This document shows positions 25,264 to 59,401 of a stretch of DNA of 59,609 nucleotides, piece by piece. Origin of the DNA: Phycisphaerales bacterium. GTDB lineage: Bacteria > Planctomycetota > Phycisphaerae > UBA1845. The notes beneath the pieces are model-generated. The model did no database searches. It was not told where the DNA came from and saw only the letters and a program-made list of their open reading frames with translations. Both the position numbers and the translations under genes were made by a program. Position 1 is the stretch's first letter, and every line of letters starts with the position of its first letter. Location of the stretch: the NCBI GenBank assembly GCA_013140575.1, contig JABFSN010000071.1:1-59609 (forward strand). Direction: 5' to 3'.

Positions 25264-26544
25264 CTACGGTTGGGCCGGCTGGCCCAGTCGCTCCTTCAGT
25301 CCGTCGTCCAAGTAGACGTTGTCCAGATTCAATCGATGATCGATGTCCCCCATGTCCATCTTCGGACCATCGGCCGCGTGGTAGTCGGCCACCAGATCGA
25401 CCTTCTGCCCGGCCTCCCAGAAATCAGCGGAAAACTGGTCCTTCCCATCCGGCCCGTACGACACCAGCACCGGCCGACCGCGGTTCTGTCCGATCAGGAA
25501 TTGTGCCGTCTTAAGCCGTCTGCCGCCGGTGTCGGACGGCGCGGGAGTGTCGACCGACTTATCCCCGTGACTCACCGCGTAATACTCGAACGGTTGCCCC
25601 CACGCATCGACGAACGTAACCAGCGGAACGTCGTCGGTGTCCGGTTCTGTCTTGCTGCCGGTCGTGGTGTTGCGATCGAAGAACTCGGGCAGCGGTGCGG
25701 GCCGGCGGTACTTGGCGTCAATGCGATCGAGAATCGCGCCCCCTTCGGAACTGTAAAGCCGGATGGCCAGCGCCATGGCCTTGATGTCCTTCTGATCAAC
25801 GCCATTCAACCCGCTCGCGGGCAGTTGCAAGTCACTGTCGCGACCGGGACCGATGAACTTGGGAACCGGCGGCAGCGGCGGCTTCGTCGGAATGCCGTCC
25901 GTCTTGATGAACGGCTCCAGTTCATCGCACGGATAGCCACCGTAGCGGTTCTTGTATTCGGATAGGTTGCCCAGCGGCGAATCGGTGCGGAACTGCTCGA
26001 TGGCCAGGTCGAGATTGCGCATCACCGCCTGCGTCTGGCGGATTTCGCCGTTGCGCAAAACGACCGTGCTGACCTTGACCACCGATGCGATCAGGATGGT
26101 CAGCACGGTAATGACCACCATCAGCTCGACCAGCGTGAACGCCGACCGGCCGCTATTGTGGCATGGGCGTCCCGCCCATGTCTTCGCATTCTCGTGGCAT
26201 GCCCTTCGGTGGACGATTCGCGTGGGCTCAGGATGCCCGCCACGGGCAGGCATGAATGTAGCCCCGCGTTTCAACGCGGGATTCACGGTTGGCCCAATGG
26301 CGCCTAGTCCCGAAGGGACGGCTGAAACGCCGCCTTCCGCTTCAGCCGTCCCTTCGGGACTGGCGGAATCGTGGAACGGACGAGCATCCCAGCACTGAAG
26401 TGCTGGGCTACATTCATCGCGTCCCTCCGGGACGCCAAATACGCGCAGGCTTCCAGCCCATGTCGCCACGGGCAGGATGCCCGTGTCACGAAACATGCGG
26501 CCGCATGGATCGGTCGGACCGAAATGCCCGGTGTGTCGTCTCAT
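25264..26544 (-). CDS. Pseudopilin, GspG-like, with repeat-derived leader
   Basis: The prepilin motif SGRSAFTLVELMVVITVLTI starts about 135 residues from the first ATG (26544); a GTG at 26565 is also in frame. The interval is filled by hairpin repeats (26158-26251, 26253-26436, 26466-26489). The only later in-frame ATG (26253) lies in the repeat edge. The mature part (~290 residues) resembles GspG-type pseudopilins, with YGPDGKDQF near the end. Another ATG in a different frame at about 26572 runs into a stop within 30 codons, so the original start may now be out of frame. Functional status is open. Confidence 0.65.
   Translation of the reverse strand: MRRHTGHFGPTDPCGRMFRDTGILPVATWAGSLRVFGVPEGRDECSPALQCWDARPFHDSASPEGTAEAEGGVSAVPSGLGAIGPTVNPALKRGATFMPARGGHPEPTRIVHRRACHENAKTWAGRPCHNSGRSAFTLVELMVVITVLTILIASVVKVSTVVLRNGEIRQTQAVMRNLDLAIEQFRTDSPLGNLSEYKNRYGGYPCDELEPFIKTDGIPTKPPLPPVPKFIGPGRDSDLQLPASGLNGVDQKDIKAMALAIRLYSSEGGAILDRIDAKYRRPAPLPEFFDRNTTTGSKTEPDTDDVPLVTFVDAWGQPFEYYAVSHGDKSVDTPAPSDTGGRRLKTAQFLIGQNRGRPVLVSYGPDGKDQFSADFWEAGQKVDLVADYHAADGPKMDMGDIDHRLNLDNVYLDDGLKERLGQPAQP
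26158..26251. repeat. Paired-hairpin element, family G, copy 2
   Basis: It starts GTGGCATGGGCGTCCCGC and ends with GGATGCCCGCCACGGGC. It is part of the repeat cluster inside the open frame of the pseudopilin at 25264. Confidence 0.6.
26253..26436. repeat. Paired-hairpin element, family D, copy 1
   Basis: TGAATGTAGCCC (26253-26264) and GGGCTACATTCA (26405-26416) are perfect inverted arms. Between them are GTCCCGAAGGGAC hairpins; outside is GCGTCCCTCCGGGACGC. A second copy is at 54265-54364. Confidence 0.75.
26466..26489. repeat. Family G half element
   Basis: CCACGGGCAGGATGCCCGTG is the right-hand hairpin of family G, within the repeat cluster of the pseudopilin leader. Confidence 0.5.
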
Positions 26545-48586: not shown

Positions 48587-49318
48587 TCAGACGAGTGGAT
48601 TCGCCAGGCCGACAGTCGGGCCGATGACGGTGACCACCGGGGCGCGGAGGTCGGCGCGGTCGGCGGCGTCGGCTATCGAATCGAGCGCCGCGATGACCGA
48701 TCGTTGACGGTCCGTGGTGGCCCGCTCGATGCACGCGACCGGCGTCGATGGACCGCGGCCGGCGGCGATCAGGCGGCGGGCGATGTCGGCCAGTTCGGAT
48801 CGGCCCATCAATACAACAACGGTATCCAGCCTGGCGAGCGTTTCGAAATCGGGCGGGGGATCGCCGTCGCGTGTTTGGCCGCAGACGATGCCGACGCTGC
48901 GGGCCAGACCGCGGTGCGTGACCGGGATGTTAACCGACGCCGGCCCGGCCAGGGCGCTGCTGACGCCGGGAACGATTGCGCAGGGGATGCCCGCATCGCG
49001 GCACGCGAGCCATTCTTCGTAACCGCGGCCGAACAGCAGCGGATCGCCGCCTTTCAAACGGACCACGGTGCGGCCCCGCCGGGCGTGGTCGATGATCCAT
49101 TGATTGATGTCCTGTTGACCCGGCGACGATTGGCCCGGCGACTTGCCCGCATCCATGATGACCGCGTCGGCGCGGGCGTGGGTCAGGAGAGCGCGGTCGA
49201 TGAGGCGGTCGTGAATGATGACGTCGGCCGATCGGACAAGATTCAGTCCCTTGACGGTGATCAGTTCGGGGTCGCCGGGGCCGGCGCCGACAAGATGGAC
49301 GGTGCCGGGGGGTGTCAT
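48587..49318 (-). CDS. cobA: Uroporphyrinogen-III C-methyltransferase
   Basis: 243 residues. Transfers two methyl groups from SAM to uroporphyrinogen III to give precorrin-2, the entry to siroheme. VHLVGAGPGDPELITVKG and VRLKGGDPLLFGRG are the two SAM-binding signatures; VPGVSSALAGPASVNIPVTHRG and VVLMGRSELADIA follow in order. It starts at the ATG of MTPPGTVHL, overlapping the stop of cbiX as ATGA. It is the last gene of the cysH-cysI-hemA-cbiX-cobA run. It lacks the CysG N-terminal dehydrogenase. Confidence 0.94.
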   Translation of the reverse strand: MTPPGTVHLVGAGPGDPELITVKGLNLVRSADVIIHDRLIDRALLTHARADAVIMDAGKSPGQSSPGQQDINQWIIDHARRGRTVVRLKGGDPLLFGRGYEEWLACRDAGIPCAIVPGVSSALAGPASVNIPVTHRGLARSVGIVCGQTRDGDPPPDFETLARLDTVVVLMGRSELADIARRLIAAGRGPSTPVACIERATTDRQRSVIAALDSIADAADRADLRAPVVTVIGPTVGLANPLV

Positions 49319-50247
49319 CGATGAATGGGAACCGGGGATTGGGGTTCGTGCGGGACGGGATTCCCGCCTGCAGAACGCTCCCGCCTTGGTCGCGTCGTGG
49401 GTGCGAGAAGGGATTCTCGCGCCAGCACCGGCGGCGGAACGGCGCGGCAACGGTTGCTGGCGTTCGAGGCGGGCGATGCCCACCCTACGAGACGCGGACC
49501 AGCCGACTCGGCCGTCGCCAGTGCGACGATGACGTCGGGAATGACGTCGTATTCGCCGACGGGTACGTCGCAGACCACGAATCGTTCGCGCGACAGTGGC
49601 AAACCGCCGCCGTTCGACGACAGACCGGCGTCGATGCGCGCGGGAATGTCCTGAACGGCGTGGTGTCCGCCGCCGATGACGAACGGGATCACGATCACGT
49701 TGGATGAGTGAATGCGTCGGTGCGCGTCTTCCAAGCGCGGCGATTCGTCGAGATGGACGGCAAGGGACTGCGAACACACGTCGGAGACGTCGCAGGCCAG
49801 CAATTCCGTGGCGCGGCGGCCGGCGCCGTGACGCGGGGTGCCGTGACCGACAACGACCACCGTGGTGTCATGCCGTGGCAGCTGATGGCGGTCCATTACC
49901 CGGCCGATTCGATCGCGGACCGCGGCGAGAATGGCCGAATGGGCGCCGACGGGCGGCGATATTCGCAACGACATGTGGCGGGAGTGTGCGCACTTGCCCA
50001 GTTCGTCGGGCAGCACGACGTTTGAAAAATGCCCATCGGCGGCCATCAGCGGCACGACCACGCATTCGTCGGCCGTGACCGTGTCCAGCACGTCCGCGAA
50101 GCCGGGTCGGCCCAATCGGAACGCCGCGACGACCTCGTCGAACCGCCCGGTGTCGGCGATCTGACCGGCAACGGACCGCACGCGGCAGTTGATGGAACTC
50201 CCGTCGCCCGAACCGTGCGCGGCGATGATGAGCGCCGTTCGGTTCAA
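49315..50247 (-). CDS. cbiX: Sirohydrochlorin chelatase, CbiX/SirB-like, with repeat-derived C-terminus
   Basis: 310 residues. Inserts the metal into sirohydrochlorin; in this operon iron, for siroheme. Two CbiX halves are visible: the first with IIAAHGSGD, the second with VVVGHGTPRHGAG, plus VIPFVIGGGHHAVQDI with the chelating histidines. The last ~58 residues (from GWASPASNASNRC onward) are encoded by a family C repeat and are Arg/Pro-rich. The stop still overlaps the cobA ATG as ATGA, so the insertion kept the coupling. The start overlaps the hemA stop in the same way. Confidence 0.85.
   Translation of the reverse strand: MNRTALIIAAHGSGDGSSINCRVRSVAGQIADTGRFDEVVAAFRLGRPGFADVLDTVTADECVVVPLMAADGHFSNVVLPDELGKCAHSRHMSLRISPPVGAHSAILAAVRDRIGRVMDRHQLPRHDTTVVVVGHGTPRHGAGRRATELLACDVSDVCSQSLAVHLDESPRLEDAHRRIHSSNVIVIPFVIGGGHHAVQDIPARIDAGLSSNGGGLPLSRERFVVCDVPVGEYDVIPDVIVALATAESAGPRLVGWASPASNASNRCRAVPPPVLARESLLAPTTRPRRERSAGGNPVPHEPQSPVPIHR
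49354..49424. repeat. Paired-hairpin element, family C, copy inside cbiX
   Basis: It runs from CGGGACGGGATTCCCGCC to GCGAGAAGGGATTCTCGC. It shares CAGAACGCTCCCGCCTTGG with the copy at 54370-54477. It forms the 3' end of the cbiX reading frame. Confidence 0.75.
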
Positions 50248-51371
50248 GCAGCCAATCCCTGTTTAATCCGGGCGGCACGTGACCCGCGCGTCGGTGAATG
50301 GCGATCGGTGGCTGCGCGATCGGAAATCGGCGACGGCGTGCGGCCCGACGCGCTCGCCGCGGCGCGTTCCGTCGTCGAGATTCCGTTCACGTCGTGCGTC
50401 GACCACCAGCGGGCAAGGCGGGCGATCTCGCGTTCGACAGCGGCGCCCGCCGATCGAACGTAATCATCCGCGACCGTGCGGCCGGCCAGCATGTCTTCCA
50501 AATGGGTCAGGCGGACGTTGGTCAACGACGCAACCGCGGGATCGACGTTCCGCGGGACGGCCAGATCGTAAATGGCGACGCTGCCGTCGCCGCGTTGCAC
50601 CATCGGCAGGTCGATGATGTAACCGGCCGACGACGTGCATACGAGAATCGCGTCGGCATGGACGACGGCGTCAGCTAGCTCGTCGAGACCGATAGCCGAG
50701 GCGTTGATCGGATCGGCCAGGCGTCGGGCGCGGTCGACGTGGCGGTTGGCGATGGTGACGCGCCAGCAGGTCTCGTCGGTCATTCGATCCACGATTTCGG
50801 CGGCGATGTGGCCGCTGCCGATGATCAGAATTCGCGGGCCGCGCAAATCGCCCACGTTGCGGCGCACCCGATCGACGACCAGTTGACCGTACGAATCGGA
50901 CCGGTCGGCGGCCGAATGACGCGCGGCTCGACCCGCGTGTATCGCCGATCGAAACAGCACCGACAGCCGCGGCCCAACCGCCCCGTGACCGTCGGCCGAC
51001 GCGAACGCGCTCCGCACCTGCCCCAGCACCTCCGGCTCGCCGATAATCGCGGATTCCAGACCCGCGGACACGCGAAACAGATGCCGCGCGCACCCCGCGT
51101 CGGTCAGCACGCGGGCGTGGCGGCGAATGCAGTCGGCTCGCGAGGCCGTCAAATCGGCCAGCCGGTCGATCCACGTGTCAATATCTGTCACTGCGCCGAC
51201 CGCATAGATTTCAAACCGGCTGCACGTCCGCAGGACGACGCGCTCGGCGGCCATGTCCGCCAACGCATTCAGCCACGACGAATCATCGGGCAGTGCCCGC
51301 TGGATTCGTTCACGAAAATCGAGCGGCGTACGGTCGTGGGCAAACCCCAAATGGAACAGTTCGGAATTCAT
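50244..51371 (-). CDS. hemA: Glutamyl-tRNA reductase
   Basis: 375 residues. NADPH-dependent reduction of glutamyl-tRNA to glutamate-1-semialdehyde, the first committed step of tetrapyrrole synthesis. The nucleophile is the cysteine of VVLRTCSRFEIY. HLFRVSAGLESAIIGEPEVLGQV and the NADPH-binding ILIIGSGHIAAEIVDRM are clear. The C-terminal dimerisation region is shorter and Ser/Arg/Thr-rich rather than helical throughout. Its place between cysI and cbiX suggests a copy dedicated to siroheme supply; whether a second hemA exists elsewhere is unknown. Confidence 0.93.
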   Translation of the reverse strand: MNSELFHLGFAHDRTPLDFRERIQRALPDDSSWLNALADMAAERVVLRTCSRFEIYAVGAVTDIDTWIDRLADLTASRADCIRRHARVLTDAGCARHLFRVSAGLESAIIGEPEVLGQVRSAFASADGHGAVGPRLSVLFRSAIHAGRAARHSAADRSDSYGQLVVDRVRRNVGDLRGPRILIIGSGHIAAEIVDRMTDETCWRVTIANRHVDRARRLADPINASAIGLDELADAVVHADAILVCTSSAGYIIDLPMVQRGDGSVAIYDLAVPRNVDPAVASLTNVRLTHLEDMLAGRTVADDYVRSAGAAVEREIARLARWWSTHDVNGISTTERAAASASGRTPSPISDRAATDRHSPTRGSRAARIKQGLAA

Positions 51372-53101
51372 GGCAGCACCTTGAGCGCGACGGCCTTGTC
51401 GGTCGGTTCTTCCTTGCCGCTGATCGAACGACGCGGTGATTCAATGCCCATCAACCGTTGATAATAGTCGCCCAGGCATTCGTCCGGACGGCGATCACGG
51501 GCCCAACGGGTCAGCAGCGGCCGCAGCGCGTCCGCAAAATCGTCCATCTTGACGTCCGTGGCGAACAGGTCGGCCACCCGGTCGCCCTCGATTCGCCCGC
51601 CCACGTAGATGGCGTAGTTGTCCGGTCCCTTGCCGACGAACGCGATGTCGGCCGTGTACGGTCGGGCGCACCCGTTGGGACACCCGGTCATGCGGATGGT
51701 GATGGGCGCGTCGCGCAGACCCAGCCCCGCCAGTTCCGATTCCATCCGATCGACGATCGACGGCATGACCCGTTCCGATTCCGACAACGCCAGTCCGCAC
51801 GTCGGCAACGCCGGACACGCCATCGAAAACCGCCGGGCGGCCGACAGCCGTTCGACCGGCTGGACGCCGTGGTCGACCAACGTGCGTTCGATTTCGTCGA
51901 TGGTGGCCGCCGTGACGTTGGTCAGCAGCAGGTTTTGATGCGGCGTCAGCACAACGCCGGGCCGATATCGTTCGACGATGGTTTTCAACGCCGTCTTGAT
52001 GCGGCAATCCGGCTTGTCCACGATCCGCCCGTTCTGAATGAACACGCCGTAGAACGGCCGGCCGCCGTTGTGATCGTGCCGCCCCATGTGATCGTCGACG
52101 GGAATGCGTTCCAGCGGTTCGGGATCATCCAGCCGCACCGCGGTCGCCTTGCGAAACGCGTCGCGAAACGCATCCATCCCCCATTCGGCCAACAGGTATT
52201 TCAACCGCGCGTGTTTGCGATCGGCCCGGTTGCCGTGATCGCGGAACAGGGCGGCCACCGTGCGCACCGTCTCCACCGCGTCGTCGGGACGGATCGTGCC
52301 CAGCGGCTGGGCCAGCGCCGCGAACGTGTCGCCCTTGTTGTGGGTCATGCCCATGCCCCCGGCAATCACCACCACGAAACACCGCACCCGTCCCTGGTTC
52401 ATGCGCGCGATCAATCCGATGTCGTACGAATACGCGTCGATGCAGTTGTCGGTGTCCAGCGCGATTCCGGTCTTGAATTTCCGCGGCAGATAGCGGTCGC
52501 CGTAGAACGGCTCCTCCGGTTCCGTCGAAATCTGTTTTTCGCCGTCCAGCCAGATTTCGTGATACGCGTTCGATTTCGGCCGCAGCTCCACGGCGATGTC
52601 CCGCGCCAGCCCCCGCATCGCCGCGTGCGCCGCGTCATCCAGCGGCGCGGGGCAGGCCATCACGTTGCGCTCCACGTCGCCGCACGCGGACAACGTCGTG
52701 ATCAACTCGTCGTTGATCCCCGCGATGGTCGTCTTCAAATCGCGCTTGACCACCCCGTGGAACTGAAACCCCTGACGCGTCGTGACCCGCAACGACCCGT
52801 TCGCGTACCGGTCGGCCAACGCGTCCAGCCGCAAATACTGGTCCGCCGTCACCGCGCCCGCCGGAATGGCGCAACGGATCATGAAGATGTGTTCCGGGCC
52901 CAAACCGTCCGCCCGGCGATCCTTCCGCGTGTCCCGATCATCCTGCTGATAGATGCCGTGGAATTTGAGGAGATGTTCATCGTCCTTCTCGAAATGGTCG
53001 GCGTCGGATTTCAGCGTCCCGCCGATCCCCCCGCGCAACTGCCGGCTGCCGCGCTTCGCCGTCTCGACCTTCGATTCCTCCGTCTTATCCGGCATGGTCA
53101 T
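51368..53101 (-). CDS. cysI: Sulfite reductase hemoprotein (assimilatory, siroheme)
   Basis: 577 residues. Six-electron reduction of sulfite to sulfide. The siroheme/4Fe-4S ligands are C429, C435 (CPALPTCGLALSESER) and C474, C478 (GCPNGCARPY). Substrate-binding arginines lie in RVTTRQGFQFHGV. LRGGIGGTLK and HLLKFHGIYQQDDRD near the N-terminus place it with the CysI group, which reduces sulfite rather than nitrite. It overlaps hemA by ATGA. The gap to cysH upstream is filled by two tandem family E repeats. The electron donor gene is not in view. Confidence 0.93.
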   Translation of the reverse strand: MTMPDKTEESKVETAKRGSRQLRGGIGGTLKSDADHFEKDDEHLLKFHGIYQQDDRDTRKDRRADGLGPEHIFMIRCAIPAGAVTADQYLRLDALADRYANGSLRVTTRQGFQFHGVVKRDLKTTIAGINDELITTLSACGDVERNVMACPAPLDDAAHAAMRGLARDIAVELRPKSNAYHEIWLDGEKQISTEPEEPFYGDRYLPRKFKTGIALDTDNCIDAYSYDIGLIARMNQGRVRCFVVVIAGGMGMTHNKGDTFAALAQPLGTIRPDDAVETVRTVAALFRDHGNRADRKHARLKYLLAEWGMDAFRDAFRKATAVRLDDPEPLERIPVDDHMGRHDHNGGRPFYGVFIQNGRIVDKPDCRIKTALKTIVERYRPGVVLTPHQNLLLTNVTAATIDEIERTLVDHGVQPVERLSAARRFSMACPALPTCGLALSESERVMPSIVDRMESELAGLGLRDAPITIRMTGCPNGCARPYTADIAFVGKGPDNYAIYVGGRIEGDRVADLFATDVKMDDFADALRPLLTRWARDRRPDECLGDYYQRLMGIESPRRSISGKEEPTDKAVALKVLP

Positions 53102-53199
53102 TCATTCCTGCGATCGTCGCCCGCCGCAATCGGGTAGGGCGGGTTCCACCCGCCGTCGAATGGCCGCGGCCCGATTAGCGCTCGCCACCGGGCGCACAT

Positions 53200-53298
53200 T
53201 TCCGCCCCGAAGGGGCGGCGGACTGTAGCCACGGGTGAAGCGATGCGCAGCATCGCGGAACCCGTGGAAAGCGTCCCCCACGAAACCCCGCCCCGGCA
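53200..53298. repeat. Paired-hairpin element, family E, copy 1
   Basis: It begins TTCCGCCCCGAAGGGGCGG and contains CTGTAGCCACGGGTGAAGCG, GATGCGCAGCATCGC and CGGAACCCGTGG. It is tandem to copy 2, between cysI and cysH. Confidence 0.8.
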
Positions 53299-53327
53299 GC
53301 CGAGTCTTGCCGCCCCGGAGCCGGCAT

Positions 53328-53438
53328 TCCGCCCCGAAGGGGCGGCGGACTGTAGCCACGGGTGGAGCGATGCGCAGCATCGCGGAACCCGTGGATCGCG
53401 TCCCCCGGTAAACTCCGCCCCGGCAGGGGCGGAGGAAC
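53328..53438. repeat. Paired-hairpin element, family E, copy 2
   Basis: 111 bases. TTCCGCCCC at the left and GGGGCGGAGGAA at the right, with the same GATGCGCAGCATCGC core as copy 1. The tandem pair fills most of the 425-base gap between cysI and cysH. Confidence 0.85.
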
Positions 53439-53526
53439 CGCCACGGACTGCGCTCACTGTAGTCCCGCACCATCGTGTTCACCGGCGTGACGCCCGCCAA
53501 CCGCACGCTCCTTCAATTCACCCGCA

Positions 53527-54240
53527 TCAAATCCCATCCCCGTGCAGCCCGCATTCCGTCTTCGTCTGCCCGTTCCACCGGCCCACGCGCGTGTAGTCCC
53601 CCGCCGACGCCCCCGCCACCGGCGCCGTGCAATGCGTGCAACCGACCGTGGGGTATCCCCGTTCGTGCAGTTCGTTGTACGGCACGTCGTGCGCCCGAAT
53701 GTACTCCCAGATTCGCGGCCGGTCCCACTGCGCCAGCGGGTTCAATTTCAACAACTGATATTTCCAGTCCCATTCGACGACTTGAATGTTCGCCCGTGTC
53801 GCCGACTGTGACCGCCGCAACGCCGTGATCCACACGTCCGCGCCGGCCAACGCCCCCTTCATTGGCTCCACCTTGCGGATGCGGCAGCACAGGTTGGGGT
53901 CGCTCTTCCACAGTTCCGGCCCATACTGTTCGGCCTGTTGTTCCGGCGTCAACGTCGTCCCGCAATTAACGAATTCGAAATGCGGATAGCGTTCGATCAT
54001 GCGGTCACGCAAGCGGTAGGTTTCCTCGAAAAAGAACATGGTGTCGATGTAGGCCACGGTCAGCGGTTTGCCGTGAACCGCGTACATGTCGATCAATGCA
54101 CATCCTTCCATTCCGAACGACGTGGACATCACCATCCGTCGGTCGGCGAAACGATCCAGCGACCACGCGATCAACTCCTCCGTGGAGCTTTCCGCATCGA
54201 CGTTTCGTTTCTGCGGCGGCGTCGCGATTTGCAATTCCAC
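53527..54240 (-). CDS. cysH: Adenylyl-/phosphoadenylyl-sulfate reductase (Fe-S type)
   Basis: 237 residues from GTG 54240, chosen for GGAG eight bases upstream; codons further up lie in repeats. Reduces APS (or PAPS) to sulfite with thioredoxin. FGMEGCALIDM is the nucleotide loop. The 4Fe-4S ligands are C118-C119 (LCCRIRKVEPM) and C201/C204 (CTHC), which point to APS as substrate. The catalytic cysteine C230 lies in the ECGLH motif. It is the first gene of the sulfate-assimilation and siroheme operon and sits behind a predicted cysteine-rich leader peptide and terminator. Confidence 0.93.
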   Translation of the reverse strand: MELQIATPPQKRNVDAESSTEELIAWSLDRFADRRMVMSTSFGMEGCALIDMYAVHGKPLTVAYIDTMFFFEETYRLRDRMIERYPHFEFVNCGTTLTPEQQAEQYGPELWKSDPNLCCRIRKVEPMKGALAGADVWITALRRSQSATRANIQVVEWDWKYQLLKLNPLAQWDRPRIWEYIRAHDVPYNELHERGYPTVGCTHCTAPVAGASAGDYTRVGRWNGQTKTECGLHGDGI

Positions 54241-54264
54241 GGCACGCACTCCGAAAACGTATCT

Positions 54265-54364
54265 GGCGTCCCGCAGGGACGCGTTGAATGTAGCCCGGCA
54301 CTTCAGTGCCGGGGTGACCCCTCGTCTTCGATTCCGCGAGTCCCGAAGGGACGGCTGAAACGCC
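54265..54364. repeat. Paired-hairpin element, family D, copy 2
   Basis: GGCGTCCCGCAGGGACGC, TTGAATGTAGCCC and GTCCCGAAGGGACGG hairpins in the same order as 26253-26436, inverted. It lies in the cysH leader. Confidence 0.75.
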
Positions 54365-54369
54365 GCGCG

Positions 54370-54477
54370 CTGGTGCGAGAATCCCGCCTGCCCTTCACGC
54401 CGCGCAGCGGTGTCAAGGGTCTCGCACCCAGAACGCGACCAAGGCGGGAGCGTTCTGCGCGGGAGTCCCATCCCGCG
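54370..54477. repeat. Paired-hairpin element, family C, copy in cysH leader
   Basis: GCTGGTGCGAGAATCCCGCC at the left, then a long stretch sharing about 25 bases (ACGCGACCAAGGCGGGAGCG and flanks) with the copy inside cbiX, inverted. It lies between the attenuator terminator and cysH. Confidence 0.75.
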
Positions 54478-54544
54478 AATCCCTGCCCCAGCCGGCGCCG
54501 AGGAGGCTCCGCCGAATTCGCCAAACCTGAACCCATTCCGGGAA

Positions 54545-54578
54545 CAAAAAAACCGCGGGATCCCGTCCCGCGGTTTTT
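54545..54578 (-). terminator. Strong intrinsic terminator in the cysH leader (attenuator)
   Basis: Read on the minus strand: AAAAACCGCGGGA, a five-base loop CGGGA, then TCCCGCGGTTTTTTT. The GC stem of nine pairs is perfect and extends through A-T pairs into a run of seven T. It stands 41 bases after the leader-peptide stop and about 300 bases before cysH. Confidence 0.8.
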
Positions 54579-54618
54579 GGCTTCTCCTGCATTTTCCAGC
54601 GCGGATGCGGCCGTACCG

Positions 54619-54708
54619 TCAGGACGATTCCCTCGACGGACAACAACAGATGCACGCGGTATCCACCCACCGCGCGACCTGACCCCCAAATCCCTGCCGC
54701 ATCAACAT
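54619..54708 (-). CDS. Leader peptide with Cys-Ile-Cys-Cys-Cys (predicted cysteine attenuator ORF)
   Basis: A 29-codon ORF, MLMRQGFGGQVARWV followed by DTACICCCPSRESS and TGA. Codons 19 and 21-23 are cysteine, the rarest residue in most proteins. The ATG (54708-54706) is seven bases after the -10 hexamer, so the message would be leaderless. Placement before cysH, the Cys run and the downstream terminator together match leader-peptide attenuation. In mycobacteria, leaderless poly-Cys uORFs are known cysteine-responsive attenuators; this would be an analogue in another phylum. Not conserved-family evidence, hence the moderate score. Confidence 0.65.
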   Translation of the reverse strand: MLMRQGFGGQVARWVDTACICCCPSRESS

Positions 54709-54714
54709 GACCCC

Positions 54715-54743
54715 ATCCTAACCACCGCCGGGACTGCTGTCAA
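54715..54743 (-). promoter_or_regulatory. Promoter of the cysH operon leader
   Basis: Consensus TTGACA (54743-54738), exactly 17 bases, then TAGGAT (54720-54715). The predicted transcript start coincides with the A of the leader-peptide ATG at 54708. Confidence 0.7.
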
Positions 54744-54809
54744 CAGGAATTTCACAGCCCCGACAAGCACGCCCCGCCACGGTTCCGGCGCGATGGTCCG
54801 GATCCCATC

Positions 54810-54833
54810 AGAGCCGCGGGCGCAAGCCCGCGG
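54810..54833. repeat. Hairpin, family I, second copy
   Basis: GAGCCGCGGGCGCAAGCCCGC, as at 42886. It lies between the cysH promoter and the cytochrome gene. Confidence 0.5.
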
Positions 54834-54880
54834 TCTTGGTCGTCCGGACACGAATGGTCTCGCGACTCGCCGCACCCATT

Positions 54881-54987
54881 TCAGAACCCCGGACGCAAGT
54901 CCCGGGCCAAACGGGAACCGGCCCGCGTCGCGCGCCGTTTGCCGACCCCGGTTCCGTGCGCCGCGCCGCCTGCATGGCGGGTTCAGA
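54881..54987. repeat. Paired-hairpin element, family A, copy 4
   Basis: 107 bases from TCAGAACCC to GGGTTCAGA, in the same orientation as 37054. The left hairpin is CCCGGACGCAAGTCCCGGG. It lies just downstream of the cytochrome gene's stop. Confidence 0.8.
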
Positions 54988-55043
54988 TAATCACGCCCGG
55001 CCCGAACACCCGAGCGCGTCGGACCGTTGTCGAGCTCCCGCCG

Positions 55044-55526
55044 TCACCGAATCGGCCCGGAAACGTCCCTAAACCGCTCGTGGCACGATACGCACGTCGT
55101 TTCGATGTTCGTCAGCGTTGAACGAATCGCGGCGACGTCACGATTCGCCGCCGCCGTGCGCAATCGCTTCGCCTGGTCGGCCAGCGTCTCCACCTGCGCC
55201 TGAAACGCCCGCCGATCCGCCTCGTTCATCTCCACTCGCGCAACGGCCTCGGGAATTTGCGCGGCCGCCGCGGTCAGTTCATCCGCCGCGCCCACCACGT
55301 CATCCAACGCCGGATCGACGTCCTTTCCGATCTCCGCTTGTTCCGGCTGTATTTCCTGTGGCCACGACGTGGATCGCTGTCGTTCGAGGTCGGCCATGAT
55401 CCGGCGTATCCGCGCGTCATGCACCCAATGACGCTCCGCCGGCGACGCGTCGTGCCCCATCATCGGCGGGCGAACGCAGCCGGATGCGACCGTGACGACG
55501 AGAATGACAACGAATCGAGCGACCAT
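55044..55526 (-). CDS. Cytochrome c'-like lipoprotein
   Basis: 160 residues from ATG 55526, which has an AGGGGG site. The signal sequence ends with a lipobox (VASGC), so the protein is probably lipid-anchored. One heme-binding CVSCH lies near the C-terminus in a helix (TTCVSCHERFR), as in cytochrome c' and related four-helix proteins. The preceding helices carry Ala/Glu-rich heptads. It may carry electrons or bind small gases; no partner oxidase is adjacent. Confidence 0.8.
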   Translation of the reverse strand: MVARFVVILVVTVASGCVRPPMMGHDASPAERHWVHDARIRRIMADLERQRSTSWPQEIQPEQAEIGKDVDPALDDVVGAADELTAAAAQIPEAVARVEMNEADRRAFQAQVETLADQAKRLRTAAANRDVAAIRSTLTNIETTCVSCHERFRDVSGPIR

Positions 55527-55650
55527 GATGAAACCCCCTGCGCGAAGTGGTGAATCGCCCGACACCCGGACACCAGTGACCCTTCGTGTCACAACGCCGA
55601 CATCACCACCCCGCACGCCGCTCCGCGGTCCGATCCGGCAACCCTTCTGA

Positions 55651-55717: not shown

Positions 55718-58700
55718 CTACCGGATCGTCATCCGCGTCACCGTGAACTCCGCCGGCAACGCCACAGCCGTCACCGTCCCGTCCGCCCCATCGTCGTTCA
55801 CCGCCCAGCCCGTCCAGTGTTCGATGATCGTCCCGTTCTGGTCCGACGCCACCAGCACGTCCGAACCCATCACGTCCAATCCGCCGATCCGCGGCCCCGG
55901 CTCGAACGCCAGGTTCGTAATCGGATCGTCGAGAAGCCCGTCGAACGCAATCGCCCCCGTCGCGGGCGTCGGCGTAAACACGCAGATGCGCGGCCCGCCG
56001 CCCGCCACCGAGCACGGGATGTACAACCGCGTCCCATCCGTTCCCAGATCCCCGCCCAGACCGGTGAGTTCCCCCGCGGACGCCGTCGGGTCCATGGTCC
56101 CGCCATTCCCGCCCAGCGGCGCGACGGTCTTGTCCCAGTACCGAATTCGGAAGTCGGCGGCGTTCAGCGCGTACAGGAACCCGTTGATTTCCGCCATTCC
56201 GATTAGACGTGGGTGTGACGACAACCCCTGAATGGCGCCCATCGACGTGATGTACCCCACCCCGCCGGGCGCCACGTTCGGGTTCATCCGGTGCAACTTC
56301 GGGTTGACCGCGGCGCACTCCGCGCTCCCGCCCGTGCACTCCTCCACCGAGACGTACAAGTGAGTGCCATCATACGCCACCAGCGGATTCGAAGACTGAA
56401 TGGCACTGTCGCCGAATTCGCCGGAGATCCGGCGCGTCATCGAGAAGTTGCCCAGCCCCGGCAACAGCCGCACCGGCGCTCCGGTTACCGGATTCAGCTC
56501 GAGTATCGGCGGAAAACAATCCGTAACGGCGTTCTGAAACCGCTCCAGTTTGCAGAACAGATGATCATCGTCCCGGCCCCGCATCGTCGTCACGAACATC
56601 CGCGGCGCCCCCCCGGTCGGACCGGCCACGCCCGTCACCGGCGACATCACCGCAATGCCCACGGCGTACGCCGCCCCCGCGCCAGGTAGGTCAATCTCAA
56701 ACCGTCCATGCCCCAGCGTCGTCCCCGCAACGCCCACGTCGAACGGCGCGTTCTCGCTGACCAGCATGTTTCCGCTTTCAACTCCCACCATCACCCGCGC
56801 CCCGTCCACCATCCCCGCTGGGAGAATCGACGACAGGTGCCCCGCCATTTCGTTCACCGTACCGTCGATATCCATCTGCGGATCCGCGGATTCCAACGAG
56901 TAATCCTGAACGTCGATCAGCCATCCCCGCGCGTCGAACATCGCCAGAAACGAGTGGACGCTGGGTTGCGTCGCCCGGTCGTATTCCACGACCGTCACCG
57001 AAACGACATCCCCCCCGTCCGCGTCGACCGCGTAGAAATCCACGTCGCCTTGATGGCCCCGGTAACGCCCATCGTGCAACGAATGCGGCTCGGCCGAGGG
57101 GGTCATCGTGGACAGCCGGTTCGCGATCTCGACCACGCACGCCGTGTCCACAGTATCATCCCCCGGCTCAACCGCCTCGCAGGGGTGGCCGTGGTCCTCC
57201 GCGCCAAGCGGATTGTTCGAAAAGAACAGGTTGACCCGATAGCACTGCAACGTCGCCGGCGGCATCAAATCGGGATCCGTGGTGCACCCCAGCAATCGTC
57301 CGCCCGGTTTATTCACCCGCCCCCCCAACACCGGCCGCAGGTCCGATTCCGACGTGCCCGGTACGCCCGTCCCGTGCGGAAAGTTCAAGAAGCTCGCCGG
57401 CCGCGGCAAATCCAGGAAAACGCAATTGGCGTCAAACAGACCTCGATCCGTGCCGAACAAGGCCAGGTAATAAACGCCGTCGCCACCCACGTTCGTACCC
57501 CTGACCGACGCGACCATGTTTGGCCCACCAGGATCGGATTCGAAATCCGAGTATCGTTGACCGTTGGTGCTCGTCGCCACGAGTTCCCCCGCCGAATCGT
57601 ACAACGCCAGCGCCTGCCCAAACACCGTCGGATAACCCCCGGTATTGGCCGGCCGGACCAGCGCCGTCATCCGACGCGTATTCCCCCGCGAACCGTCCAA
57701 CTGAAGGCGGTACAGGTCCAGGTCCTGCCCGATCGACGACCACGACCCGTCACCGATCGCCCCCCGCAGGATCGTGCATCCGGCGGTTTCCGGGTGACAC
57801 AACGCTCCGTGGGCGTCGGCGTCGGCCATCGAATCGTCCGGCTCGTGTTTGCTCGCGTAGCACGTCGTCGCCCCGTCCGAATGGTCGTCCACCACGCAGT
57901 CCGGCCGCGTCGACAACACCTTCAACGTGTAGCTTCCCTCGTCACCCGGCTCGATCGCCGGCCCCGACGTCGGATCGTCCGCCGCGTAATCGGCCGTCAA
58001 CGCCGTGCTAACCCCCACGTACAGCACCGGCGAATCGACAGGAACCTCGACCGTCGTGAACGCGTCCAGATTCCGCGGTGAAAAATCATCGCTCCGCGCG
58101 ATCTCCGTAAACGCCGCGTCGTTCCTGAACACCCGCAAATACGGATCGACCAGCGGACCGGCCGACGCGCTCCTGCCCCCCTCCACCAGCACGCTTAACA
58201 CATCCCCCGCCACCAACCCCTCGATCCGGTACAGGTCCACGTCCTGCAACGGGTCCGCCGGATCAGGAATGTCCTCCACACACTCCGCCGCCCCCGGAAT
58301 TTCCAGCGAACAGACCTCGAACCGCGACCAGTCCGCTCCGTCCACAAACCCGTCCATCGTCCAGTCGTGTAGGCCGCACGCCCCGCTCGCCGGTCCGCCG
58401 TGGCAAACCTGGAAACACCCAAAATCCGTCAGGTCGATCCGCTCATCGCCGTTGCAATCGAAAAAATCCACCGGCTGAAACGTGTACGGCTGCCCATTGT
58501 CCCCCAGAAACCCCGTCCGCGTCTCCGCGGCGCTCGAGCACAACCCATTCGCCGGATTCGGCGCGTCCAGCGCGATCACGTCCGCGGTCGACGCCTCGTT
58601 ATTGCCGTCCGCGTCTTCGTTGGACCCCCCGTACAACGTCATCGCGATCCCGAAATACGCCTCGTTCAGGCTGCACACATCGCCCCCCACGCACGGCCGG

Positions 58701-59401
58701 CGCAACCCCGTCCCCACCTCCACCGGCTGCCAGTTCGGGTTCGAACAGATGGTCGGCCACGCGCCGATGCACTGCGAAAACTCCGCATTGATGACGTGCA
58801 GCCCGTTCTCGTTCCCCTCGCCCCCGCTCGCCAGCGCCGGGCCGCATCTCGGCAACCCCCCGTTGCACAACGACGTCTCGCTCCCGAATCGCACCTCCAC
58901 CCCCACCTTGCCCGCCGGCAACGTGAATCCCGTCCGACTCCCAATATCCTGAACCGCCGGATTAATCACCGCGACCCCCGTCTCCGCATCCACCACCGTG
59001 TACGTCCGGGCCGCGTAGTCCACCGTCACCCGCATCATCCGCGGCCCGCCGGTCGTCGCATCGCAATAGGCCGGAATCCCGCTCAACGCGCCCGCCCCCG
59101 TCGTGCGGAAAAGCGCCCCGGTGATAATCGTCCCGAGATGTCCCGAATCGGTTCCCGCGTAGAATTGAAAACTGGCCAGCGTGTTGGTCACCGCCCCCGG
59201 CCCGCAGTTCACCACGTACAGATCGAATCCGGTCACCACCCCGCCGGCGGTCGTGAACCAGTCCCGCAACGACAACGCCGGGAACGGGTTCACCGCCCCC
59301 CCCACCGGATACCACTGCACCTCGGGCGTGCAGATCGTCGAATTGTCATACAACTGCGGCCGGTCGATGAACCCCCCCGTCATCGAACCCGCCGCGAGCA
59401 C
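55718..59401 (-). CDS. Large secreted protein with dockerin-like EF-hand region; 5' end cut by a repeat
   Basis: 1227 residues from GTG 59401. There is no signal peptide. The frame stays open a few codons further back (NAAADFAVLAAGS) and then meets a TAG inside a family E repeat. The true N-terminus was therefore probably lost or lies beyond the repeat. An N-terminal beta domain (1-290) is followed by two calcium-loop helices (DCNGDERIDLTDF and DWTMDGFVDGADWSRF), as in dockerins. Then come several PPC-like beta domains (DVDLYRIEGLVAGDVLSV; QGDVDFYAVDADGGDVVSV) and a C-terminal propeller-like part (from about 930). Likely extracellular. No anchor is visible at the C-terminus. Confidence 0.7.
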   Translation of the reverse strand: MLAAGSMTGGFIDRPQLYDNSTICTPEVQWYPVGGAVNPFPALSLRDWFTTAGGVVTGFDLYVVNCGPGAVTNTLASFQFYAGTDSGHLGTIITGALFRTTGAGALSGIPAYCDATTGGPRMMRVTVDYAARTYTVVDAETGVAVINPAVQDIGSRTGFTLPAGKVGVEVRFGSETSLCNGGLPRCGPALASGGEGNENGLHVINAEFSQCIGAWPTICSNPNWQPVEVGTGLRRPCVGGDVCSLNEAYFGIAMTLYGGSNEDADGNNEASTADVIALDAPNPANGLCSSAAETRTGFLGDNGQPYTFQPVDFFDCNGDERIDLTDFGCFQVCHGGPASGACGLHDWTMDGFVDGADWSRFEVCSLEIPGAAECVEDIPDPADPLQDVDLYRIEGLVAGDVLSVLVEGGRSASAGPLVDPYLRVFRNDAAFTEIARSDDFSPRNLDAFTTVEVPVDSPVLYVGVSTALTADYAADDPTSGPAIEPGDEGSYTLKVLSTRPDCVVDDHSDGATTCYASKHEPDDSMADADAHGALCHPETAGCTILRGAIGDGSWSSIGQDLDLYRLQLDGSRGNTRRMTALVRPANTGGYPTVFGQALALYDSAGELVATSTNGQRYSDFESDPGGPNMVASVRGTNVGGDGVYYLALFGTDRGLFDANCVFLDLPRPASFLNFPHGTGVPGTSESDLRPVLGGRVNKPGGRLLGCTTDPDLMPPATLQCYRVNLFFSNNPLGAEDHGHPCEAVEPGDDTVDTACVVEIANRLSTMTPSAEPHSLHDGRYRGHQGDVDFYAVDADGGDVVSVTVVEYDRATQPSVHSFLAMFDARGWLIDVQDYSLESADPQMDIDGTVNEMAGHLSSILPAGMVDGARVMVGVESGNMLVSENAPFDVGVAGTTLGHGRFEIDLPGAGAAYAVGIAVMSPVTGVAGPTGGAPRMFVTTMRGRDDDHLFCKLERFQNAVTDCFPPILELNPVTGAPVRLLPGLGNFSMTRRISGEFGDSAIQSSNPLVAYDGTHLYVSVEECTGGSAECAAVNPKLHRMNPNVAPGGVGYITSMGAIQGLSSHPRLIGMAEINGFLYALNAADFRIRYWDKTVAPLGGNGGTMDPTASAGELTGLGGDLGTDGTRLYIPCSVAGGGPRICVFTPTPATGAIAFDGLLDDPITNLAFEPGPRIGGLDVMGSDVLVASDQNGTIIEHWTGWAVNDDGADGTVTAVALPAEFTVTRMTIR

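Follow-up and report, generated by a model that had tools for sequence, protein, structure and literature searches.

Comparison strongly supports the reading of the planctomycete cysH leader as a conserved, predicted-leaderless Cys-codon transcription attenuator. The leader lies on the minus strand of the window, the whole 59,609-nucleotide stretch of Phycisphaerales DNA that was analysed. By sequence and comparison, it comprises a short Cys-rich open reading frame (ORF), a promoter with the spacing of a leaderless start, an intrinsic terminator, and an antiterminator arm whose complementarity to that terminator covaries among relatives, all linked to cysH. A ribosome-mediated transcription attenuator sensing charged tRNA-Cys is the best explanation of this arrangement, with a probability of roughly 0.88. 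The element new here is the putative antiterminator, in which the last codons of the ORF, its stop codon and the next bases would pair with the 5' arm and loop of the terminator. The compact leader, present in 34 genomes from 30 genera and also in some Gemmatimonadota, unites predicted leaderless translation with an intrinsic terminator and a covarying antiterminator. It provides a concrete model of amino-acid sensing for the phylum, in which leaderless translation becomes directly testable.

Architecture of the leader and its operon

The promoter consists of a -35 hexamer TTGACA (54738-54743, minus strand) and a -10 hexamer TAGGAT (54715-54720, minus strand) separated by a 17-nt spacer, and a promoter of the same type is found in most of the 36 loci analysed. 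It is the only sigma-70-like match within 53600-55600, where shuffled sequences give a mean of 0.3. The 5' end of the transcript is predicted to lie at or near the ATG at 54708, the seventh base past the -10 hexamer. This ATG opens an ORF of 29 codons (54619-54708, minus strand), leaderless by promoter spacing, which encodes MLMRQGFGGQVARWVDTACICCCPSRESS followed by a stop. Cys occupies codons 19, 21, 22 and 23 (UGC AUC UGU UGU UGU, 54640-54654, minus strand), the proposed stall site.

Beyond the stop codon, 40 bases precede the stem of an intrinsic terminator (54546-54578, minus strand), composed of a perfect 13-bp stem with arms at 54578-54566 and 54560-54548, a 5-nt loop and seven T (54552-54546). 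Apart from this stem, 54200-55050 holds no inverted repeat of 12 nt or more with arms within 60 nt. A separate terminator scan missed it and gave another stem inside the ORF (one found, 1.5 expected). Rfam 15 covariance models gave zero gathering-level matches over 54545-54743, and the matches in ten related loci were to cobalamin, SAM and TPP riboswitches only, none of them falling to the attenuator.

The first gene past the leader is cysH (PAPS reductase family, 53527-54240, GTG start at 54240), followed by a cysI-like sulfite reductase gene (51368-53101) and siroheme-type genes encoding a GlutR-like protein, a CbiX chelatase and a tetrapyrrole methylase (48587-51371), all on the minus strand. 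The initial annotation had listed the promoter with its 17-nt spacer, the 29-codon ORF opening at the predicted start with Cys at the four positions, the perfect GC stem followed by seven T, and the cysH, cysI and siroheme genes downstream; all of these are present, the gene identities being borne out by Pfam matches. A gap of 305 nt separates the terminator from cysH.

Several other features were observed in the window. Acido-Lenti-1 RNA (RF01687) is matched twice, at 54267-54313 on the minus strand, within the 305-nt gap, and at 26388-26434 on the plus strand. An open frame of 134 aa between cysH and cysI (53102-53506, minus strand) and another of 1227 aa upstream of a cytochrome c'-like gene (55718-59401, minus strand) are each without a Pfam match at E <= 0.001.

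Conservation of the Cys ORF and leaderless spacing

cysH was sought in 60 genomes, including that of the window, and matched in 40; 34 of these, from 30 genera, carry a close cysH (E below 1e-80). A Cys cluster was defined as three or more Cys within six residues of an open frame upstream of cysH. By this criterion, all 34 genomes have a Cys-cluster ORF upstream of the close cysH, in G010 across a contig break. Among the 60 relatives, cysH matches outside the clade come from G043, G045, G049, G052, G055 and G058, with a second one in G017. None of the four such loci with a full upstream region (L041, L042, L043, L045) has a short Cys ORF, L041 scoring only through one long open frame; L040 and L044 had 150 nt or less of upstream sequence, and that of G043 was left out.

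Across the phylum, 124 of 294 genomes yielded a cysH match, and upstream regions were covered for 69 of the 123 genomes other than the window's own. The criterion scores in 9 of these 69 more distant upstream regions (4/29 and 5/40 in two batches), mostly in frames inside other genes. Judged by eye, L062 among the nine has a clear poly-Cys ORF and L054 is a weak candidate, the remaining seven appearing to be chance or upstream-gene frames.

The 36 loci analysed are those of the 34 genomes without G010, together with three from named MAGs, one of Phycisphaerae (L031) and two of Gemmatimonadales (L034, L035). L032 and L033 are duplicates of L006 and L008, and the sequence of L037 runs out at a contig edge. 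The leader ORF was picked by hand in loci with several scoring frames (L005, L008, L012, L018, L019, L020, L024, L038). The leader peptides differ in length and sequence except for the Cys cluster and the last codons, which encode the antiterminator. Alignment of relatives had been proposed earlier as a check on whether Cys run and terminator persist as the rest of the peptide varies, and this is the pattern observed, apart from those antiterminator-encoding last residues. In 29 of the 33 loci listed, 104-231 nt separate the ORF stop from the point where the cysH match begins.

These observations bear on a different reading, in which promoter, ORF and terminator form a self-contained unit, an independent gene for a small Cys-rich protein (metal- or redox-related) that ends in an ordinary terminator, and another promoter, located in the gap, drives cysH. 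The 305 nt between terminator and cysH would accommodate such an organization, but it is improbable: a second promoter-like site is absent from 53600-55600, the peptides vary beyond the Cys cluster and the antiterminator codons, the ORF keeps its distance to cysH in most loci, and the covariation between ORF end and terminator described below is not expected of a plain terminator.

The attenuator reading is accompanied by a recurrent promoter geometry. An in-frame start lies 4-10 nt past the -10 hexamer of the best promoter in 28 of the 36 loci. Under the score cut applied to shuffled sequences, 27/36 loci show leaderless spacing, compared with 8 of 1080 dinucleotide shuffles. L009 and L013 show the spacing by eye, were missed by the script and stand outside the 28, as does L036, in which TATAAT lies 7 nt before an ATG without a -35 hexamer at 16-18 nt. 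Leaderless spacing is absent from L003, L012, L018, L028 and L038, and the gap in L108 is 12 nt. Such spacing predicts a leaderless mRNA and does not prove one. Together with the Cys run, the terminator and the antiterminator covariation, it supports the initial annotation's view of a cysteine-responsive attenuator.

Antiterminator pairing and the proposed switch

The antiterminator arm GTCCTGACGGT (54615-54625, minus strand) spans the last codons, the stop codon and the following 4 nt, and pairs with ACCGCGGGAC (54574-54565, minus strand), a segment of the terminator 5' arm and the first loop base that is common to terminator and antiterminator. As read from the window sequence, ten pairs form and the A of the stop codon TGA bulges out. 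A search for this kind of pairing had also been suggested as a check, and the pairing found covaries among the relatives.

Over the 36 loci, arms and their own partners average -24.6 kcal/mol, compared with -19.6 kcal/mol for swapped partners (z -9.4, 0/20000). By part, swapping gives z -5.0 for the 5' arm alone and z -4.1 for the loop and the start of the 3' arm alone. The controls give z values of -0.9 for a segment upstream of the Cys run, +2.1 for the spacer, -0.7 for the reversed arm, -0.1 for the reversed terminator and -1.5 for the shuffled arm.

Alignment A1 and model R1 hold 30 of the 36 loci, those with long or unusual ORF ends (L005, L015, L017, L018, L029, L038) being omitted. In A1, 78.8% of the antiterminator cells are paired and the covariation score is 0.265, each matched by 0/500 shuffles, a test that kinship of the rows may inflate and beside which the slid versions and the partner swapping serve as other controls. 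Changes on both sides are seen in 11 of the 15 antiterminator pairs, a count equally high in 5/500 shuffles, and slid versions of the antiterminator are 34-52% paired. The half on the 5' arm is 86.0% paired compared with 70.7% for the half on the loop and 3' arm, three columns are unpaired in 12-16 of the 30 rows, and the terminator helix is paired in 95.3% of its cells. In loci outside these sets, the antiterminator pairing is equalled by few shuffles (as low in 7/500 for L108, 3/500 for L120 and 5/500 for L122). A clear antiterminator is missing from L029 and L038, and that of L028 is weak.

In the proposed mechanism, transcription would start on the ATG or no more than a few bases from it, and the ribosome would load on the 5'-terminal AUG. 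In the cysteine-replete state, the ribosome would pass the Cys codons and rest on the stop codon inside the antiterminator arm; with the arm masked, the terminator would form and the transcript would end near 54546. In the cysteine-poor state, the ribosome would stall on the Cys codons and the antiterminator arm would stay free. The free arm would pair with the emerging terminator 5' arm and loop, blocking the terminator and allowing the polymerase to continue into cysH, cysI and the siroheme genes. In 13 of the 36 loci, 27 nt separate the last Cys codon from the end of the stop codon, a distance that, given the size of a ribosome footprint, would place the arm just beyond a Cys-stalled ribosome and under a stop-bound one.

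The Cys codons themselves are biased. In the last 40 codons of the leader ORFs, UGU and UGC occur 148 and 80 times (36 loci), compared with 43 and 146 times in cysH (33 loci), giving an odds ratio of 6.3 (Fisher p 3e-18, over rows that are related). UGU is read by wobble by tRNA-Cys.

Predicted folds depend on how much of the RNA is available. When masking of the RNA extends 12 nt beyond the stop, 32 of the 36 loci form the terminator. When the fold runs from 12 nt beyond the last Cys codon to 6 nt into the terminator 3' arm, so that this arm has only begun, at least six antiterminator pairs form in 33/36 loci, and the mean is 16.3 pairs compared with 7.1 for shuffled arms (34 loci). When the stalled state is folded at full length and at equilibrium, only 9 of the 36 loci form the antiterminator, and 20, the window included, retain the terminator at 80% or more. 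The terminator usually wins at equilibrium, so the attenuator model needs co-transcriptional folding, in which the order of transcription matters. A 1:2 hairpin appears in the predicted fold of the window; across 31 loci, its conservation downstream of the Cys codons finds no support, the hairpin being no stronger than in shuffles (mean z -0.05).

Spread of the leader and relation to known systems

In the window's own genome, where 150 of 1541 first-look candidates were scored, the cysH leader is the only R1 match at E <= 1, and no further attenuator copy came up. Matches below 1e-6 occur in 30 of the 60 genomes, all among the 34 with a close cysH; three of the 30 (G010, G020, G047) lie outside the model, and the four missed are G004, G005, G034 and G057. 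Weaker matches in relatives fall in seven places: the one in G010 proves to be the cysH leader, located on another contig, and the other six are without a similar leader, one of them (L107) having a chance CC..C frame. The 294 genomes of the phylum were searched under strict filters with 12 candidates scored per genome; weak matches arose in 32 other genomes, and the 14 loci returned (L130-L143) have no Cys cluster nearby.

The tree of 62 CysH proteins places 39 in one clade (support 100/99), and 38 of these have the leader Cys ORF, the exception being L123. In the class to which the genome of L034 belongs, cysH is matched in 8 of 119 genomes; the leader is present in L120, L121 (the genome of L034) and L122, absent from L123, and not found upstream of cysH in L125-L127. 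The four leader-bearing rows of the Gemmatimonadota class cluster together (100/98) within the planctomycete rows, a nesting that fits transfer of cysH together with its leader. A broader scenario is tentative and, taken as a whole, rather doubtful: a self-contained, leaderless and UGU-biased Cys-tRNA sensor with its own terminator may have arisen with one planctomycete cysH lineage, independently of mycobacteria, and moved with the gene between phyla, and the terminated short RNA may also act in trans.

Two loci outside the main clade carry related arrangements. The family of L062 groups beside the attenuated clade in the CysH tree (fork support 84/81), and in L062 a poly-Cys ORF (..LCACCCCCGTCC, then stop) ends in Cys codons upstream of cysH, with no terminator seen. 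In L124, whose cysH is divergent, a stem and a T run come after a CCCC ORF.

Leaderless poly-Cys uORFs of mycobacteria were reportedly the subject of work by Canestrari et al. in 2020. A 2015 report described leaderless Cys-rich uORFs in mycobacteria (PMC4633059), and later work on the poly-Cys uORFs of M. smegmatis is summarised as translation attenuation (PMC9031893, PMC13236596). An earlier prediction described mycobacterial Cys leaders without conserved terminator hairpins (PMC1262725). The initial annotation had taken these uORFs as a precedent acting in the same way. The precedent stands for a leaderless, short Cys-run ORF upstream of cys genes, in which elongation through Cys codons is the proposed sensor, and the planctomycete leader shares this feature by promoter spacing and sequence. 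It does not extend to the mechanism: the mycobacterial uORFs are described as lacking conserved terminator hairpins (PMC1262725) or as acting on translation (PMC13236596), whereas the window leader has an intrinsic terminator, conserved in the related loci, and a covarying antiterminator. Known Cys-codon leaders are, in these sources, those of Actinobacteria, without a terminator or acting on translation, and that of cysS in Rhodobacterales, with a presumed terminator.

The mycobacterial proposals (PMC9031893, PMC13236596, PMC1262725) also suggest control at translation or through Rho here, the state of the ORF determining whether Rho or the cysH start is accessible, with no part for the intrinsic terminator, and in L062, from a related family, no terminator was seen behind the poly-Cys ORF. 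This is a still weaker contender than the small-protein gene, given that terminator and antiterminator are conserved and covary in the clade and that the cysH start in the window lies about 300 nt past the terminator.

The leader also has counterparts among transcription attenuators. Several features of trp-type attenuators are present in the planctomycete leader, namely a short ORF rich in end-product codons, an intrinsic terminator between the ORF and the first gene and, by covariation, a mutually exclusive antiterminator. uORFC-8-2 of cysS in Rhodobacterales (PMC8632094) likewise has a short ORF with Cys codons, then a U run and a presumed terminator, with transcription attenuation predicted; it differs in having two Cys codons, in preceding cysS instead of cysH and in belonging to Alphaproteobacteria, and a leaderless start is not stated in the text available. 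In the ilvB1 attenuator of mycobacteria (PMC13236596), a uORF with regulatory codons, a stop-bound ribosome that masks the antiterminator and a default terminator recur, with branched-chain amino acids in place of cysteine. The accessible part of PMC4833913 leaves cysteine unmentioned. No report of a Planctomycetota cysH leader was found in the literature searched, weak evidence given the few subscription journals covered.

The trp attenuator of Sinorhizobium meliloti (PMC7298713) shares an attenuated RNA that opens with the leader-ORF ATG, a terminator and an antiterminator; it responds to Trp, not Cys, and belongs to other genes and another phylum. Being leaderless and having an RNA and a peptide that act in trans, as peTrpL does, it offers a precedent for a main product that is a trans-acting short RNA or peptide, control of cysH being secondary. 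Such a role is the least probable of the alternatives, since the peptide is unconserved beyond the Cys and antiterminator codons and the leader is strictly linked to cysH within the clade.

In the leader of G057 (L038), a SAM riboswitch at 1017-1121 is followed by a short ORF, MPCCC and a stop, then by a second Cys-rich ORF and cysH, an order that possibly places two sulfur sensors in tandem.
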